A program made the position numbers and the translations under genes. Below are positions 24,407-57,713 of a stretch of 64,000 bases of DNA, piece by piece. How positions within the stretch are numbered: position 1 is the stretch's first letter; the number at the start of each line of letters is the position of its first letter. A model generated the notes under the pieces. The model ran no database searches. It was given only the letters and a program-made list of their open reading frames with translations, and was not told the DNA's origin. This DNA comes from a virus, in the IMG/VR virus record IMGVR_UViG_3300030329_001736, positions 36,093 through 100,092 of that record. One strand, written 5' to 3'.

Positions 24407-24512
24407 AGCTGTAAGAGACACACAGAGGATTGATGTTCTTTCTGGTAGGTTGCCCTATAAAACTAAGAGAAGGCTACTCAGGGGCTTTCCTAGCGAGACA
24501 ATTTTCTACTGA
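24375..24512 (+). CDS. Possible 45-residue basic protein at the convergence point
   Basis: An open frame starting inside the end of the previous gene encodes 45 residues (MSLKRQNPLSEAVRDTQRID..., ending SETIFY). It fills the gap between the plus-strand and minus-strand blocks and overlaps the terS stop by 7 bases. Composition (Arg/Lys-rich, sensible helix) looks protein-like, but there is no good ribosome binding site, so coding status is uncertain. Confidence 0.35.
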   Translation: MSLKRQNPLSEAVRDTQRIDVLSGRLPYKTKRRLLRGFPSETIFY

Positions 24513-24982
24513 ACCGTAGTAATTTCCTGTTCTTCCTCCTCTTCCTCCTCAATATCCTCTTCTTCCTCATCTTGAAACCATTTACATCCTAAAAATATTT
24601 TGGATGATCTTTCCTCTCCTAAGATTTCAAAATTGTTTATTATGTCTTGCTCTAGTTCAGCGATAGATTTAATAACTTCTTCATCTTTGACTGATCTTAC
24701 TTTGGATAGAACTTCAAGAGCTTTGATTGCGCTGTTGGTGTGACCATTATTCTTGGCGTAGGTATACTGGTTTTCTATTTCAGAGATAACATCAATCTTT
24801 GTCTCTAATTCTTTTTCTAGTTCTTCTATTCTTTCCTTGATGTCTTCTCGTTGTACTAGCCTGTGTCCTTGAGTGTGAGCAGACACGGCAGAATATCCTG
24901 CTGACTTAGCAGACTCCGTGGCATTACGAAGAACAACGTATGCCTGACAAAACTTCTCTTGTTTTAAATTTAATTCTGCCAT
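24506..24982 (-). CDS. terS: Terminase small subunit
   Basis: 158 residues. N-terminal LNLKQEKFCQAYVVLRNATESAKSAGYS is the DNA-binding helix-turn-helix signature of the Terminase_2-type small subunit, followed by the central oligomerisation helices. The C-terminus is very acidic (EEEEDIEEEEEEEQ), as in many small terminases. It recognises the packaging site and feeds DNA to TerL. Unusually, terL is ~23 kb away on the opposite strand; terS instead follows the spanin genes as the last gene of the leftward lysis operon. Confidence 0.85.
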   Translation of the reverse strand: MAELNLKQEKFCQAYVVLRNATESAKSAGYSAVSAHTQGHRLVQREDIKERIEELEKELETKIDVISEIENQYTYAKNNGHTNSAIKALEVLSKVRSVKDEEVIKSIAELEQDIINNFEILGEERSSKIFLGCKWFQDEEEEDIEEEEEEEQEITTVQ

Positions 24983-28781: not shown

Positions 28782-29198
28782 CTATTTTATTGTAATTAAT
28801 TTAGGCTTTTCTTCTTCAGGAATAATTTCTTTTAATGTGACAGTGAGAAGACCGTCTTTTAAAGCAGCGTCTGTCACTTCCATAGCGTCAGATAAAGAGA
28901 ATGACTTACGGAATTTACGCGCAGCAATTCCTGTTACTATATAATTTTTAGTATCATCACCATATCTATTTCCAACAATAGTAAGTATGTTATCCTTCAA
29001 CTCAATTGTAATATTTTCTTTTGAGTATCCAGCAACAGCTAGTGTCAGCCTATAAATATTACCATTTTTTTCCAGATCATGTGGTGGGAATGAGCCAACA
29101 TTACTTGGTACTCGTTTAAATAAATCTTCAAAGGTAAATCCTAACATATAATCTGGAAGTGTTTTGGAATTTTTATTGATATAATCTATAAAGTTCAT
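28782..29198 (-). CDS. Small heat-shock protein (Hsp20/alpha-crystallin)
   Basis: 138 residues from the ATG at 29198, chosen because AAGGAGA lies just before it (an earlier ATG at 29213 precedes that site). The alpha-crystallin domain is clear: SFPPHDLEKNGNIYRLTLAVAGYSKENITIELKDNILTIVG, FRKSFSLSDAMEVTDAALKDGLLTVTL. ATP-independent holdase that would protect host or phage proteins from aggregation; related Hsp20 genes are known in cyanophages. It has its own promoter at 29257-29285 and lies between the RNR gene and the lysis operon. Confidence 0.9.
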   Translation of the reverse strand: MNFIDYINKNSKTLPDYMLGFTFEDLFKRVPSNVGSFPPHDLEKNGNIYRLTLAVAGYSKENITIELKDNILTIVGNRYGDDTKNYIVTGIAARKFRKSFSLSDAMEVTDAALKDGLLTVTLKEIIPEEEKPKLITIK

Positions 29199-36064: not shown

Positions 36065-36249
36065 TTACCTTCCAATAAAGATACTAATTCAAAGTCACAT
36101 ACAGGACAGAAACCTATTTCAATATCTTCTAAGTATAGTACAGCGTCACAGTTTGTGCATTGTTGATACTCCTTATCGTCAAAGCCATCGTCATGTTGGT
36201 ACTCGTAGTCAGGGTTTAACCATGAAGGATGTATACTATACTTCGACAT
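36061..36249 (-). CDS. Small zinc-ribbon protein
   Basis: 62 residues from the ATG at 36249, which follows AAGGAGCTTGAAAAGA. Two CxxC knuckles (CTNCDAVLYL and CPVCDFELV) 17 residues apart form a zinc ribbon; the N-terminus is acidic/aromatic. Its start overlaps the end of the HNH gene and its stop overlaps the polymerase start (ATGA-type). Function unknown. Confidence 0.6.
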   Translation of the reverse strand: MSKYSIHPSWLNPDYEYQHDDGFDDKEYQQCTNCDAVLYLEDIEIGFCPVCDFELVSLLEGK

Positions 36250-46924: not shown

Positions 46925-47000
46925 CCGGCCAAAATGGCTCGGCGGAACCGGTTAGTTCCAACCAATCAAATGGGAACGATTGCCCTAATTTTCAAGGGCT

Positions 47001-47014
47001 TTTTACCGGTAAAA
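47001..47014. promoter_or_regulatory. Operator-like palindrome 4, TTTTACCGGTAAAA
   Basis: Perfect palindrome with CG centre, 76 bases beyond palindrome 3. A short hairpin (GCCCT/AGGGC) lies between them at 46982-46999. Confidence 0.7.
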
Positions 47015-47028
47015 GAATATTTATTTTT

Positions 47029-47050
47029 TTTAATCATTCGGACGATTAAA
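47029..47050. promoter_or_regulatory. Second operator-like inverted repeat, TTTAATC-N8-GATTAAA
   Basis: Perfect 7 bp arms (47029-47035, 47044-47050) spaced so their centres are 15 bases apart, close to a helical turn and a half; a likely dimeric protein site next to palindrome 4. Confidence 0.5.
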
Positions 47051-47154
47051 CTTGACATACGGGGTTACCTATGAATGGCGCAAACGCTAGCGATAGGCAT
47101 TTTCAATTGGCAATATAAGACGCTAGCTTGCTAATAATTGCCTTGCTCATTATA
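47051..47154. other. Non-coding control DNA with CGCTAGC repeats
   Basis: No gene is seen. CGCTAGCG (47085-47092) and CGCTAGC (47121-47127) recur, and a TTGACA at 47052 has no fitting -10 box. Probably part of the leftward promoter/origin region. Confidence 0.4.
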
Positions 47155-47295
47155 TCACCATGAACTAATTAGCACCCTAATAGTAACACTCGTTACTAAA
47201 TAGACCAGCCCCCACCCCCACCCAAAAAATCCCCCCACTGTGTAGATATCATATATTATGGGTGACATATATAGACCAAAAATAAAAAGGAACAT
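47155..47295 (-). CDS. Possible 46-residue membrane protein
   Basis: ATG 47295 follows AAAGGGGGCATTGTTTA. Product MFLFIFGLYMSPIIYDIYTV... is hydrophobic with GGFFGWGWG encoded by the G-rich tract. Could be the first leftward gene, or chance coding across a structured DNA element. Confidence 0.3.
   Translation of the reverse strand: MFLFIFGLYMSPIIYDIYTVGGFFGWGWGLVYLVTSVTIRVLISSW
47209..47236 (-). other. G-quadruplex motif
   Basis: Plus strand runs C5-A-C5-A-C3-A6T-C6; the minus strand thus has four G-runs of 3 or more with loops of 7, 1 and 1 bases. It stands out in very AT-rich DNA. Confidence 0.7.
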
Positions 47296-47387
47296 TAAAC
47301 AATGCCCCCTTTGTTTTATTTCAACAATTCTATCCAAAAATAATAACAAAAAATAACTCGGCTTGCTACACATTCAGCCTATCTAAG

Positions 47388-47469
47388 TTATATTCTTAAT
47401 TATATTTATTTATAATATTAATATATAACTAAGAATATAATCTTAATATATCTTATATAGTACTATATA
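47388..47469. other. AT-rich inverted-repeat region, candidate replication origin
   Basis: TTATATTCTTA (47388-47398) and TAAGAATATAA (47430-47440) are perfect inverted 11-mers; TATATAGTACTATATA (47454-47469) is a perfect 16 bp palindrome. The stretch 47388-47470 is almost pure A/T. Suits DNA unwinding between divergent transcription units; origin role is inferred. Confidence 0.4.
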
Positions 47470-47536
47470 GTATAGGGTAACACAGATTCTAAAATAAGCA
47501 AGGGATATTTTCTTTCTTTCTTCTAAAGATTAGGGG

Positions 47537-47565
47537 TTGCAAAAATATAAGATAAATAGTAAAAT
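47537..47565 (+). promoter_or_regulatory. Sigma-70-like promoter for the rightward head genes
   Basis: TTGCAA (47537-47542), 17-base spacer, TAAAAT (47560-47565). Start expected near 47572, 50 bases before the cysteine-rich gene. It would serve the mini-gene, terL and the head operon. Confidence 0.6.
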
Positions 47566-47622
47566 ACATTTTATTCCTGTAAGCTAAGAAAGCGAACTCA
47601 AATCATCATAAGGAAGGAACTT

Positions 47623-47793
47623 ATGTCTTCACCAAAATATAAAGACGAGTGTCCGTGTGAATGTGAAGATTGCGACTGTGATTGTGATCAATGTGACTGT
47701 AACAAGGCTACCCAACAACAAGAAGAAAAAGAAGTAGTAAACCCAGACTTTATGGCTCACTACTCTAAAAAGGATGAACCAGTGTGGAACTAG
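47623..47793 (+). CDS. Cysteine-rich metallothionein-like mini-protein
   Basis: 56 residues, with AAGGAAGGAACTT before the ATG. Eight cysteines lie between residues 10 and 26 in pattern CxCxCxxCxCxCxxCxC (CPCECEDCDCDCDQCDC), surrounded by Asp and Glu, then a Gln/Glu-rich linker and PDFMAHYSKKDEPVWN. The CxC/CxxC density is that of metal-binding metallothioneins, though no known family is recognised. The terL GTG start lies in its last codons, so translation is coupled. It could bind zinc or another metal, or be a redox-sensitive regulator. First gene of the rightward unit. Confidence 0.7.
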   Translation: MSSPKYKDECPCECEDCDCDCDQCDCNKATQQQEEKEVVNPDFMAHYSKKDEPVWN

Positions 47794-49364: not shown

Positions 49365-49547
49365 ATGGTTTCTATAAATGAAGCTAAAACAAATAATGAT
49401 TTAATAAGACCTAAGTGGGAAGACTATCGCTGTCCAAAATGCGAATGCGATATCCATGAACTATGTAGACGAAAATGGACAAAGTACAGCTTAGATTTAA
49501 ATAAATATATGGTATTAAAATTTAAGGATACTTACACACATGACTAA
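49365..49547 (+). CDS. Small cysteine protein, zinc-binding type
   Basis: 60 residues. CPKCECDIHELC gives CxxCxC-x5-C, a possible zinc site; the rest is basic (RRKWTKYSLDLNKYM). No ribosome binding site is striking (TTATAGT). It lies between terL and the 577-residue gene. Function unknown. Confidence 0.5.
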   Translation: MVSINEAKTNNDLIRPKWEDYRCPKCECDIHELCRRKWTKYSLDLNKYMVLKFKDTYTHD

Positions 49548-51295: not shown

Positions 51296-53821
51296 ATGGC
51301 AACTGAACGCAATCCATTTGATCCCATTCCTGAAGTAGAAGTCTCTATGATAGAGATTGAACCAGAAGCAGACAGCGAGGATGCAAGTATAGAGTATGAT
51401 CCTACTGATGGTGGAGTAGTAGTAGAGTTTAAGACGAATGAAGATGAAGGACTAACCAAAGAACAAGTAGAAGAAACAGAAGAAGAGTTCTACAGAAATC
51501 TAGTTGATGATCTAGATGAAAATACTCTAGAGGATATCGCTTCTCAAGTTCACGAAAACTTTACTGCTGACAGAGACAGTAGATCAGAATGGGAGTCTAT
51601 GTTTGAAAGAGGTTTTGATCTTTTAGGATTAAAACTAGAAGAAGCTTCAGAACCCTTTGAAGGTGCATGTACTGCTGTTCATCCTGTTCTTATTGAGTCT
51701 GCAGTTAAGTTTCAATCCAAAGCTACTCAAGAATTATTTCCTGCTTCAGGACCAGTTAAGTCTCAGATTATTGGTGAGGTAACAGAAGAGAAAGAACAAC
51801 AAGCTCACAGAGTAGATCAGTTTATGAACTATCAGGTAACGGAACAGATGCCTGAATACTTTGATGAGTTTGAAAGAATGCTGTTCCATTTGCCTTTGAT
51901 TGGTTCAGCTTTCAAAAAGATTTACTTTGATAGCAATCTTAATAGACCAGTTTCAGAATTTGTTCCTATTGATCAGTTCTATGTTTCTTACTATGCTACC
52001 GATCTAAGACGCGCAGATCGTTACACGCATGTTATCTATCGTTCTCCAGTGGAAATGAAAAGAGATATTGCGTCAGATATGTATGCAGATGTAGACTTGC
52101 CATCAGCAGGTACACCAGATATGGCACCTATCAGTCAAAAGATGGACAATATTATGGGTCTATCTCCTTCAGGTAGCCACGATCCACAATATGTAGTACT
52201 GGAGCAGCATTGTTATCTCGACCTACCAGATAAGTTTTCTGATGAAGATGGTCTATCTTTACCGTATATTGTTACTATTGAAGAGCAAAGCCAGCAGGTT
52301 TTGTCTATTCGCAGAAACTACAACAAGGATGACAAGCGTAAAGAAAAGAAAATCTTCTTTACTCACTACAGATTTGTGCCGGGTTTTGGTTTCTACGGTA
52401 TGGGACTTATCCACTTCCTTGGTAACTTGACGATGACTGCTACTGCTGCCATGCGTAGCTTGGTAGATGCAGGACAATTTGCTAATCTTCCCGGTGGTTT
52501 CAAAGCTAAGGGTATGAGGATTGTTGGTGATAATGATCCTATTGCACCGGGTGAGTTCAGAGAAGTAGAGGCTACAGGTAATGATCTTTCTAAGATGATC
52601 ATTAACCTTCCTTACAAAGAACCATCTCAAACTTTATTCCAGATGCTCAACTTTGTAACTTCTACAGCCCAGAAGTTTGCTGACACAACTGAACAAGTTG
52701 TTTCTGATGCAGCGAGTTACGGTCCAGTAGGCACAACGATGGCGCTTCTTGAAGCATCAAGTAAATTCTTTTCTGCTATTCATAAGCGTTTGCATAAGTC
52801 TCAGCACGATGAGTTCAAGTTGCTTGGACGTATCAACTGTGAGTATCTTCCAGAAGAATCTATGTGTGATGTACCCAACGGTACTCTAAAAATTTATAGA
52901 AGTGATTTTGATGGTAGAATTGATATTGTTCCTGTATCTGATCCAAACATTCCTTCATCCGCACACAGGATGATGATGGCTCAGTTGGCTTTGCAGCTTT
53001 CTCAATCCGCACCACCGGGAATGTTCAACGTAGAAGAATTGAATAAGACTATTCTATCTGCAGCTAACATACCTAACTTAGATAAGATTCTACCAGAGAA
53101 ACCAGAACCAATGCCGCTTGATCCTATCAGTGATATTCAAGCTGCAGTCAAAGGAATGCCAATCAAAGCTTTTATTGGTCAAAACCATCCTGCTCACATT
53201 CAAGTAAAGACAATGTATCTACAAGACCCGATGAACGGTGGTAATCCAGTTATGCAAAGGATTGCTCCTGTTCTTCAAGCTAATATCCAAGAGCATATGG
53301 TTATGCAATATCAAGAACAAGTTAATGGAGTTGCTCAACAACTTATACAACAGTATGGTCAAGAAGCAGCAGAAGCAGGTATTGATCCTCAAGACCCAAG
53401 AGTTATGGAAGAGGTTATGGCTCAAGCTGCACAACAAGTTATGTCTGCTAATCAAGCGATGGCTGCTCAACAGCAAGCAGGATCACCTGAAGCACAAATG
53501 GTTCAGATTGAACAGCAGCGTCTTGGTGTTGAACAACAAAAAGTTCAAACTCAAATGGCTAAAGAAGCTGCAAACGCAGCAAATAAAAACAGAGAGCTTG
53601 ATCTTAAAGAGATGGAAATACAATTGGATATGTTCAAGGAAGGTGTTAACATCTCTACAACTAAAGAAGAAAAAGAACTTGACAGAAATGCCAAGAAAGC
53701 TATTGCAGCTTTGGATGCTCTTATTGATCTGGCAAAAACAGAATCTAATATTGACAGAGACAAGACTCTTAAAGCTGCAGATATGTTAACTAAATTTATA
53801 GGGAATGCACAGAGACAATAA
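51296..53821 (+). CDS. Portal protein
   Basis: 841 residues, the large portal type of short-tailed phages. Blocks: GACTAVHPVLIESAVKFQSKATQELFP, PIDQFYVSYYATDLRRADRYTHVIYRS, YRFVPGFGFYGMGLIHFLGNLTMTATAAMRSLVDAG, and SYGPVGTTMALLEASSKFFSAIHKRLHKSQ. The C-terminal ~170 residues are Gln-rich coil (the barrel). Forms the dodecameric vertex through which TerL pumps DNA. Its start MATERNPFDP echoes the tag at the end of the preceding gene. Confidence 0.93.
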   Translation: MATERNPFDPIPEVEVSMIEIEPEADSEDASIEYDPTDGGVVVEFKTNEDEGLTKEQVEETEEEFYRNLVDDLDENTLEDIASQVHENFTADRDSRSEWESMFERGFDLLGLKLEEASEPFEGACTAVHPVLIESAVKFQSKATQELFPASGPVKSQIIGEVTEEKEQQAHRVDQFMNYQVTEQMPEYFDEFERMLFHLPLIGSAFKKIYFDSNLNRPVSEFVPIDQFYVSYYATDLRRADRYTHVIYRSPVEMKRDIASDMYADVDLPSAGTPDMAPISQKMDNIMGLSPSGSHDPQYVVLEQHCYLDLPDKFSDEDGLSLPYIVTIEEQSQQVLSIRRNYNKDDKRKEKKIFFTHYRFVPGFGFYGMGLIHFLGNLTMTATAAMRSLVDAGQFANLPGGFKAKGMRIVGDNDPIAPGEFREVEATGNDLSKMIINLPYKEPSQTLFQMLNFVTSTAQKFADTTEQVVSDAASYGPVGTTMALLEASSKFFSAIHKRLHKSQHDEFKLLGRINCEYLPEESMCDVPNGTLKIYRSDFDGRIDIVPVSDPNIPSSAHRMMMAQLALQLSQSAPPGMFNVEELNKTILSAANIPNLDKILPEKPEPMPLDPISDIQAAVKGMPIKAFIGQNHPAHIQVKTMYLQDPMNGGNPVMQRIAPVLQANIQEHMVMQYQEQVNGVAQQLIQQYGQEAAEAGIDPQDPRVMEEVMAQAAQQVMSANQAMAAQQQAGSPEAQMVQIEQQRLGVEQQKVQTQMAKEAANAANKNRELDLKEMEIQLDMFKEGVNISTTKEEKELDRNAKKAIAALDALIDLAKTESNIDRDKTLKAADMLTKFIGNAQRQ

Positions 53822-54031: not shown

Positions 54032-54451
54032 ATGCAAGCAGTAAGAATGGATAAATCAATCAGTAACTCAGATTGGATTACTGACGAAGACGTAAAAATT
54101 GATTTAAATAGTTTGCCTGACATACCGGGCTACCATCTTTTGATTCAACCAGTATCAATTAAAAAAGAAACGAAGGGTGGCATTATCTTACCAGATAAAG
54201 TTAAGGATGATGTAGCTTATCTTACTACGGTAGGTAAAGTTCTAAAACAAGGTGATTTGGCATACAAAGATGAAGAAAAGTTTCCTTTGGGTCCGTGGTG
54301 TAATACTGGGGATTATATCTGTTACGCTAAATATACGGGACAGAAGTTTATGTATAAAGGATTGAAACTTCTTTTGATCTTTGATGATCAGGTAATTATG
54401 AAAGTCGAGCAACCTTCGTTGCTTGATCCTACATATCACCTATCAAATTAA
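54032..54451 (+). CDS. GroES-like phage cochaperonin
   Basis: 139 residues. IPGYHLLIQPVSIKKETKGGIILPDKVKDD contains the mobile-loop region of Cpn10/gp31 cochaperonins; VGKVLKQGDLAYKDEEKFPLG, CNTGDYICYAKYTGQKFMYKGLKLLLIFDDQVI form the barrel and roof. It would bind host GroEL and adapt it for folding phage capsid protein. Place between portal and scaffold fits. Confidence 0.85.
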   Translation: MQAVRMDKSISNSDWITDEDVKIDLNSLPDIPGYHLLIQPVSIKKETKGGIILPDKVKDDVAYLTTVGKVLKQGDLAYKDEEKFPLGPWCNTGDYICYAKYTGQKFMYKGLKLLLIFDDQVIMKVEQPSLLDPTYHLSN

Positions 54452-56768: not shown

Positions 56769-57713
56769 ATGGCTATTAATCGCGCTAGTATTGCGAAAGA
56801 ACTTCTTCCCGGTCTGAACGCGGTTTTCGGTATTGAATACAACGAAGTGACGAATGAACATGAAGCACTTTTCGATGTTGAAAATAGCGACCGCGCTTTT
56901 GAGGAAGAAGTCCTATTCACTGGATTCGGTACTGCGCCCGTCAAGGGTGAGGGTGCTGCGGTTCAGTATGATGACGCGCAGGAAAGTTACACTGCTCGTT
57001 ATACGGCTGAAACGATCAGTTTGGCGTTTTCGGTTACCGAAGAGGCTATGGAAGATAACTTGTACGACACGTTTGCCAAGCTTCGGGCGAAGGGTCTTGC
57101 CCGTGCGATGGCTAACACCAAGCAGGTGAAAGCTGCCGATGTATTCAACAACGGCTTTAGCTCGTCCTATCTTGGTGGTGATGGTGTTTCGCTTTTCAGT
57201 GATTCGCATCCTGTCGTGGATGGTGGTACGCAAGACAATGATCTTGATGCGACCGATCTTTCGGAGGCTTCGCTTGAGTCTGCTTTGATCACTATTGCGA
57301 AAGCGAAGGATGATCGTGGCATTCTTATCGGTATTAAGGCTGAGTCGATTCACGTTCCGCCTGATCTTGCTTTCACGGCAGATCAAATTCTTAACAGCAC
57401 GATGTCAACGACTATTGGAGTCAATCCGACTACGGCTGCTAATGGTGCAACGAACGTCAATGATATCAACTCGATTCGTAATCAGGGTCTAGTTCCCGGT
57501 GGTTTCTTTGTGAACCATCGTTTCACTGATACGAACGCTTGGTTCATTAAGACGGACTGCCCGAACGGTGCGAAGATGTTTGTTCGCGCGCCGCTTCAAA
57601 CGAAGATGGAACCGGATTTCGATACGGGTAACCTTCGCTTTAAGTCGCGGGAACGCTACAGCTTCGGCTGGTCTGATTGGCGTGGATTCTACGGAGCCAG
57701 TGGTTCTTCGTAG
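56769..57713 (+). CDS. Major capsid protein
   Basis: 314 residues. AINRASIAKELLPGLNAVFGIEYNEVTNEHEALFDVENSDRAFEEEV starts a known HK97-fold coat family; ETISLAFSVTEEAMEDNLYDTFAKLRAKGLARAMANTKQ and C-terminal MFVRAPLQTKMEPDFDTGNLRFKSRERYSFGWSDWRGFYG complete it. AAAGGAGTAATTAATA precedes the ATG. High-expression codon use and a terminator directly after it support the assignment. Confidence 0.9.
   Translation: MAINRASIAKELLPGLNAVFGIEYNEVTNEHEALFDVENSDRAFEEEVLFTGFGTAPVKGEGAAVQYDDAQESYTARYTAETISLAFSVTEEAMEDNLYDTFAKLRAKGLARAMANTKQVKAADVFNNGFSSSYLGGDGVSLFSDSHPVVDGGTQDNDLDATDLSEASLESALITIAKAKDDRGILIGIKAESIHVPPDLAFTADQILNSTMSTTIGVNPTTAANGATNVNDINSIRNQGLVPGGFFVNHRFTDTNAWFIKTDCPNGAKMFVRAPLQTKMEPDFDTGNLRFKSRERYSFGWSDWRGFYGASGSS

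Follow-up and report, generated by a model that had tools for sequence, protein, structure and literature searches.

A cysteine-rich mini-gene in front of terL in a clade of uncultured tailed phages, and its possible metallothionein-like role

The locus in front of terL

The window is the whole stretch of viral DNA analysed here, 64,000 nucleotides long (positions 36,093 to 100,092 of the IMG/VR record IMGVR_UViG_3300030329_001736). In it, a very short cysteine-rich open reading frame runs into the start of the gene for the large terminase, terL. The relevant features, in positions of the window, are:

24506..24982, minus strand: terS, small terminase (Pfam Terminase_2, E 1.4e-15; PHROG 51, E 3e-20)
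28782-29198, minus strand: Hsp20 small heat-shock protein
47537..47565, plus strand: putative sigma-70-like promoter of the terL operon, TTGCAA-17-TAAAAT (consensus scan)
47610..47618, plus strand: ribosome-binding site (RBS) of the cysteine-rich ORF, AAGGAAGGA, just 5' of the ATG (from the sequence)
47623..47793, plus strand: cysteine-rich mini-gene, 56 aa, type A (ORF; homolog in L001; related mini-genes at the same site in one TerL clade)
47650..47700, plus strand: codons of the cysteine core C10-C26, CxCxCxxCxCxCxxCxC (from the sequence)
47768..47774, plus strand: RBS of terL inside the mini-gene tail (AAAGGA region, KKD codons), likewise arranged in L001-L004
47784..49355, plus strand: terL, large terminase, GTG start (PHROG 38, E 2e-105; Terminase_6C, E 2e-13)
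51296-53821: portal (PHROG 1216)
54032-54451, plus strand: GroES-like Cpn10
56769-57713: major head protein

To the left of the mini-gene, minus-strand genes extend to about 46.9 kb and are followed by a largely non-coding, AT-rich stretch, so that the cysteine-rich ORF is the first plus-strand gene and terL the next. Its product, which starts with ATG and has 56 aa, is MSSPKYKDECPCECEDCDCDCDQCDCNKATQQQEEKEVVNPDFMAHYSKKDEPVWN. An initial annotation, made from the sequence alone, had described eight cysteines in 17 residues, a strong RBS and a terL start within the last codons of the frame. All three were borne out: the cysteine spacing is 1-1-2-1-1-2-1, the limits 47623-47793 are exact, the RBS directly before the ATG was rated good, and the GTG at 47784 makes the overlap 10 nt. 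In 60 dinucleotide-preserving shuffles of the entire window, open stretches of at least 40 codons reached a maximum of six cysteines per 17 residues, and the spacing pattern was never seen. The remainder of the real window, however, has up to seven per 17 residues, which means that the pattern and its conservation stand out, and the number of cysteines alone does not. By conservation and by the selection tests described below, the mini-gene is judged to be a real coding gene and more than a product of chance.

The slot in front of terL is usually occupied by the gene for TerS. As TerS is encoded far from terL here, on the opposite strand, and the mini-gene has no match to a TerS profile, the identity of the mini-gene with terS was rejected. 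A fusion of the cysteine domain to TerL by a -1 frameshift was also excluded: a TGA at 47775-47777, past the AAAAAG run and two codons before the GTG, interrupts the terL frame (the open terL frame has 525 aa as against 523). The gene after terL (49365-49547) encodes another small cysteine protein, CPKCEC...C, whose resemblance to Phage_zn_bind_8 is below threshold.

The record from which the window was taken (100,092 bases) seems to be a composite of two joined phages. Its first 36 kb (1-36092; L165 and L166) have a GC content of about 47% and encode an RNA polymerase of the T7 type; a second terminase match there is weak, and a second set of replication genes is 23-39% identical to those of the window. 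The GC content falls near 6-8 kb of the window, and the suspicion of a composite covers positions 1 to about 8000. The terL region is confirmed by two independent contigs, L001 and L002. Another contig, IMGVR_UViG_3300025168_000039 (106,894 bases; L028/L053 and L109), carries two terL genes about 57 kb apart that are 80% and 72% identical to that of the window, and is possibly also composite. Among bacterial genomes, no relative of TerL was found by the patterns used, and thus no clue to the host.

Distribution, cysteine types and selection

A search with TerL as the query gave 45 IMG/VR loci, and most of those that contain the terL start have a cysteine-rich ORF just upstream. A search for such upstream frames in related phages, and a comparison of their cysteine spacing, had been proposed in the initial annotation. 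It was found that the closest IMG/VR relatives have a cysteine-rich mini-gene at the same site; the spacing is kept within each type, but it differs across the clade. Grouped by cysteine pattern, the loci fall into five types:

Type A, the window and L001: 8 Cys
Type B, L002-L004: 4 Cys, CxxC-x6-CxC; tail NPDF...Y.K..EPVW in common with A
Type C, for example L006-L016 and L070-L082: 9 Cys, Cx4Cx5CxCx2CxCx9-10CxCC
Type D, L018: 10 Cys; begins with Cx4Cx5CxCx2C as in C
Type E, L019-L030 and L040: 7 Cys, Cx5-6CxCx11CxCxCC

The mini-proteins are 41-58 aa long. That of L001 is 93% identical to that of the window (alignment A1), with all eight cysteines retained. Types C, D and E have the layout C-x5-CxC ... 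CC in common, with dense CxC, CxxC and CC motifs, few histidines and one or two aromatic residues, as against four to six aromatics in A and B. The tails of A/B and C/D/E are completely different, and the hhalign score between these two sets of proteins was not significant, so that separate arrivals of different cysteine-rich genes at one site are possible. Their homology is supported along two lines, position and the TerL tree.

Searches with the mini-proteins only led to new loci (up to L085), and each of the 22 that were examined has a terL downstream, 78-88% identical. In INPHARED, no relatives of the A, C and E mini-proteins were found. Among cultured or named phages, those with the most similar TerL are 023Pt_psg01, HTVC027P and HTVC023P (about 38% identity), and they have no such cysteine-rich ORF before terL. 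A wider TerL search reached relatives of about 69% identity; in those at 74% or below, no comparable ORF precedes terL within 700 nt, or within as much of this distance as the contig covers. A TerL tree was made with 87 rows; the window was entered twice, and at least 330 nt of upstream sequence were required of a row. One clade with an SH-aLRT of 99 holds 36 of these rows, 35 of them with the mini-gene, which none of the other 51 has. Two changes explain this distribution, the simplest pair being a gain and a loss, the latter in L005, a close relative without the mini-gene; since the tree was a quick one with midpoint rooting, we infer the direction of these changes rather than read it from the tree. 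On this distribution and the loss in L005, the mini-gene is best described as a marker of the clade and not as something that TerL always needs.

Codon alignments of four types (A, B, C and E) gave a pN/pS of 0.37-0.39. In pairwise comparisons, which are not independent events, cysteine replacements numbered 0 of 1539 (C), 0 of 147 (E), 0 of 12 (B) and 0 of 8 (A), with 180, 64, 2 and 0 synonymous TGT/TGC differences, respectively. As evidence for purifying selection, the codon comparisons are strong for C and E and weak for A, for which there is one pair with two synonymous differences. In type C, the residues from the last cysteine to the stop vary freely and accept small insertions, which places the function in the cysteine part.

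The connection with terL also varies with the type. In A and B, where the terL RBS lies in the KKDEP/KREEP codons, the two genes overlap by 10 nt; type C has an overlap of 1-32 nt or a gap of 2 nt; in D and E, a gap of 3 to about 400 nt separates the genes, and several loci have another small gene in between. The terL start that sits in the A/B tail explains its conservation in part; the synonymous changes in the NPDF codons indicate that the amino acids of the tail are preserved as well. Because the end of the mini-gene overlaps the RBS and start of terL, coupled translation from the mini-gene to terL is likely in types A-C, to judge from the arrangement of the sequence. Phage operons often show such coupling, and it cannot account for the cysteines.

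Known families and possible roles

The mini-proteins matched no family in Pfam, PHROG or NCBIfam, and a search of the PDB returned no homolog, or chance matches only. AlphaFold models had a pLDDT of 53-55 and were uninformative on the fold; such low confidence in models calculated without metal would be expected for a metal-dependent fold and is no proof of one. In the literature searched, which included few subscription papers, no phage metallothionein or comparable gene before terL was reported, and this counts as weak evidence for novelty.

The initial annotation had called the product metallothionein-like. This holds for its cysteine content and not for membership of PF02069 (Metallothio_Pro): the profile had no match at E values up to 10 in the record of the window and in those of L013, L078, L006 and L018, and hhalign against a SmtA/PflQ2MT profile gave a probability of 6% over 12 columns. 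Bacterial metallothioneins such as SmtA of Synechococcus and PflQ2MT of Pseudomonas fluorescens are in the same size class (below 60 aa, 8-9 Cys), and such small ones hold three to four Zn or Cd ions, with four Zn in SmtA and a Zn3Cys9His cluster in PflQ2MT (PMC7387436). The element CxCxxCxC is found as CACEPCLC in SmtA, CECEDCDC in the window and CNCNDCSC in type C. The small, cysteine-rich build with CxC, CxxC and CC motifs by which metallothioneins are generally recognised is found in types A, C, D and E, and not in B with its four cysteines. Unlike the bacterial proteins, the mini-proteins lack a second half of the GLYYCSEAC type, those of A and B have a conserved aromatic tail, and the gene lies in a phage operon where no metal-regulatory context was seen.

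A dense array of invariant cysteines in CxC, CxxC and CC motifs, in an intracellular protein of 41-58 residues, indicates metal-thiolate binding, with zinc as the default. The reading proposed here, which is given about an even chance, is that of a phage-specific, metallothionein-like mini-protein, coupled to terL, that buffers or donates metal while the structural genes are made. The mini-gene is then a genuine gene with which the packaging and morphogenesis operon of this clade of uncultured tailed phages begins. Its product would probably take its fold from bound metal ions, with Zn(II) the likeliest, held in a small metal-thiolate cluster, and could buffer or donate metal in the infected cell when the head and the terminase are made. 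Translation of the mini-gene ends inside the terL start, and terL would probably be translated by coupling. Late expression, coupling and metal binding of the mini-protein are what we infer; metal buffering or donation as its function is speculative. The types with seven to ten cysteines are the best argument for a buffer or donor. As a rule, metallothioneins have few or no aromatics; the four to six of A and B are unlike the classical proteins and speak against a metallothionein. No metal-gene neighbourhood common to the mini-gene loci was found.

Very small cysteine-rich ORFs are easily overlooked by gene callers, and the mini-gene is in none of the family databases searched. Its types, with 4, 7, 8, 9 and 10 cysteines as potential metal ligands, form a compact natural series for the origin of metal-thiolate proteins, and its linkage to terL in a single clade hints at metal management in some phages at the time of head assembly.

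The main rival is a zinc-dependent adaptor, that is, a structural zinc protein (knuckle or ribbon) that binds a partner such as TerL, host RNA polymerase or nucleic acid and serves packaging or late expression as an accessory; this seems possible, at clearly less than even chances. The cysteines would then hold the fold and the A/B tail (NPDF...Y.K..EPVW) would make the contact. The best argument for it is type B, whose exactly four cysteines (CxxC-x6-CxC) fit one structural zinc site better than a buffer and resemble the small zinc-binding proteins of phages (Phage_zn_bind families, zinc ribbons, HNH proteins by terminases), which are also small, contain cysteines and lie near terminase genes. 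The strict linkage to terL and the A/B tail, kept as protein with synonymous changes, agree with this. However, the mini-proteins match none of those families in Pfam or PHROGs, and the seven to ten cysteines of the other types exceed the need of a single zinc site. A count that varies from 4 to 10, with little conserved sequence between the cysteines, is unusual for such a site. Besides, the A/B tails are wholly unlike those of C/D/E, the close relative L005 lives without the gene, and some type E members have another gene between the mini-gene and terL. A phage metal-thiolate family that is integrated in the packaging module, where it supplies or guards metal for the terminase or head machine or binds to it while its cysteines fluctuate between 4 and 10, is considered doubtful.

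In the initial annotation, zinc buffering and redox control had been raised as functions, both of which stay hypothetical, and so had a translation-coupling leader peptide for terL. Coupling is the part of this suggestion that is likely; a pure leader, in which translation or ribosome stalling at the cysteine codons controls terL and the peptide is dispensable, appears quite improbable. It is true that the mini-genes of A and B end on codons that contain the RBS and GTG of terL, and that most type C genes overlap terL. However, purifying selection acts on the peptide sequence (pN/pS about 0.38) while TGT and TGC are freely exchanged, and some relatives have an intervening gene (within a gap of 250-400 nt at some E loci) or no mini-gene. 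Neither a terminator in between nor a peptide free to vary, as expected of cysteine attenuation or a leader, was found: the ORF of the window runs into the terL start and leaves no space for a terminator. The only hit of ARAGORN and Rfam in the window was a tRNA-Arg at 40.7 kb; ahead of terL they detected neither a tRNA nor a structured RNA of any known kind.

A role of the mini-protein with iron-sulfur clusters, whether as scaffold, as carrier or as target, is very improbable. A gene for FeS_assembly_P (PF01883) lies immediately upstream of the type B mini-gene in L003 (2336-2644) and L004 (1416-1724), with a match at E 1.4e-12 in L004 and the L003 copy identified by sequence, and HMO-2011-type marine phages were reported to carry iscU and erpA (PMC9038755). 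The neighbourhood in L003 and L004 is suggestive but isolated, as PF01883 was found in one of 11 related records searched, that of L004, and is absent from the record of the window; a conserved association with Fe-S assembly genes was thus not seen. To our knowledge, moreover, no Fe-S motif has a spacing of the CxCxCxxC kind.

The cysteine stretch has a hexamer-like TGTGAN periodicity, with 60% self-match at lag 6, which suggests that repeat expansion may have contributed to its origin. That the frame is a non-coding slippage artefact, a TGTGAT-like microsatellite open by chance, is nevertheless scarcely credible, as the sister clades have cysteine-rich ORFs at the same site, purifying selection already contradicts it for C and E, and the mini-gene has its own RBS.

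Non-coding sequence upstream of the operon

TTGCAA-17-TAAAAT is put forward from sequence as a putative promoter of the terL operon. The shuffles indicate that promoter-like sites in the region are as many as chance expects; GGGTTGC...TA(A/G)AAT is conserved at the corresponding alignment position in L001, in L002 and in L005, which has no mini-gene. The AT-rich stretch at 47000-47600 of the window (AAGAATATAATCTTAATATATC...ATATAGTACTATATAGTATAGGGTAACACA) is well conserved among A, B and L005 and is a possible regulatory or packaging site. Another intergenic element, GTGTTGCAnnnATGTCAC / GTGTTGCATTTATGCAAC, which is partly palindromic, recurs about 200-450 nt before terL in L006, L013, L018, L026, L028 and L031, and may be an operator or promoter element.
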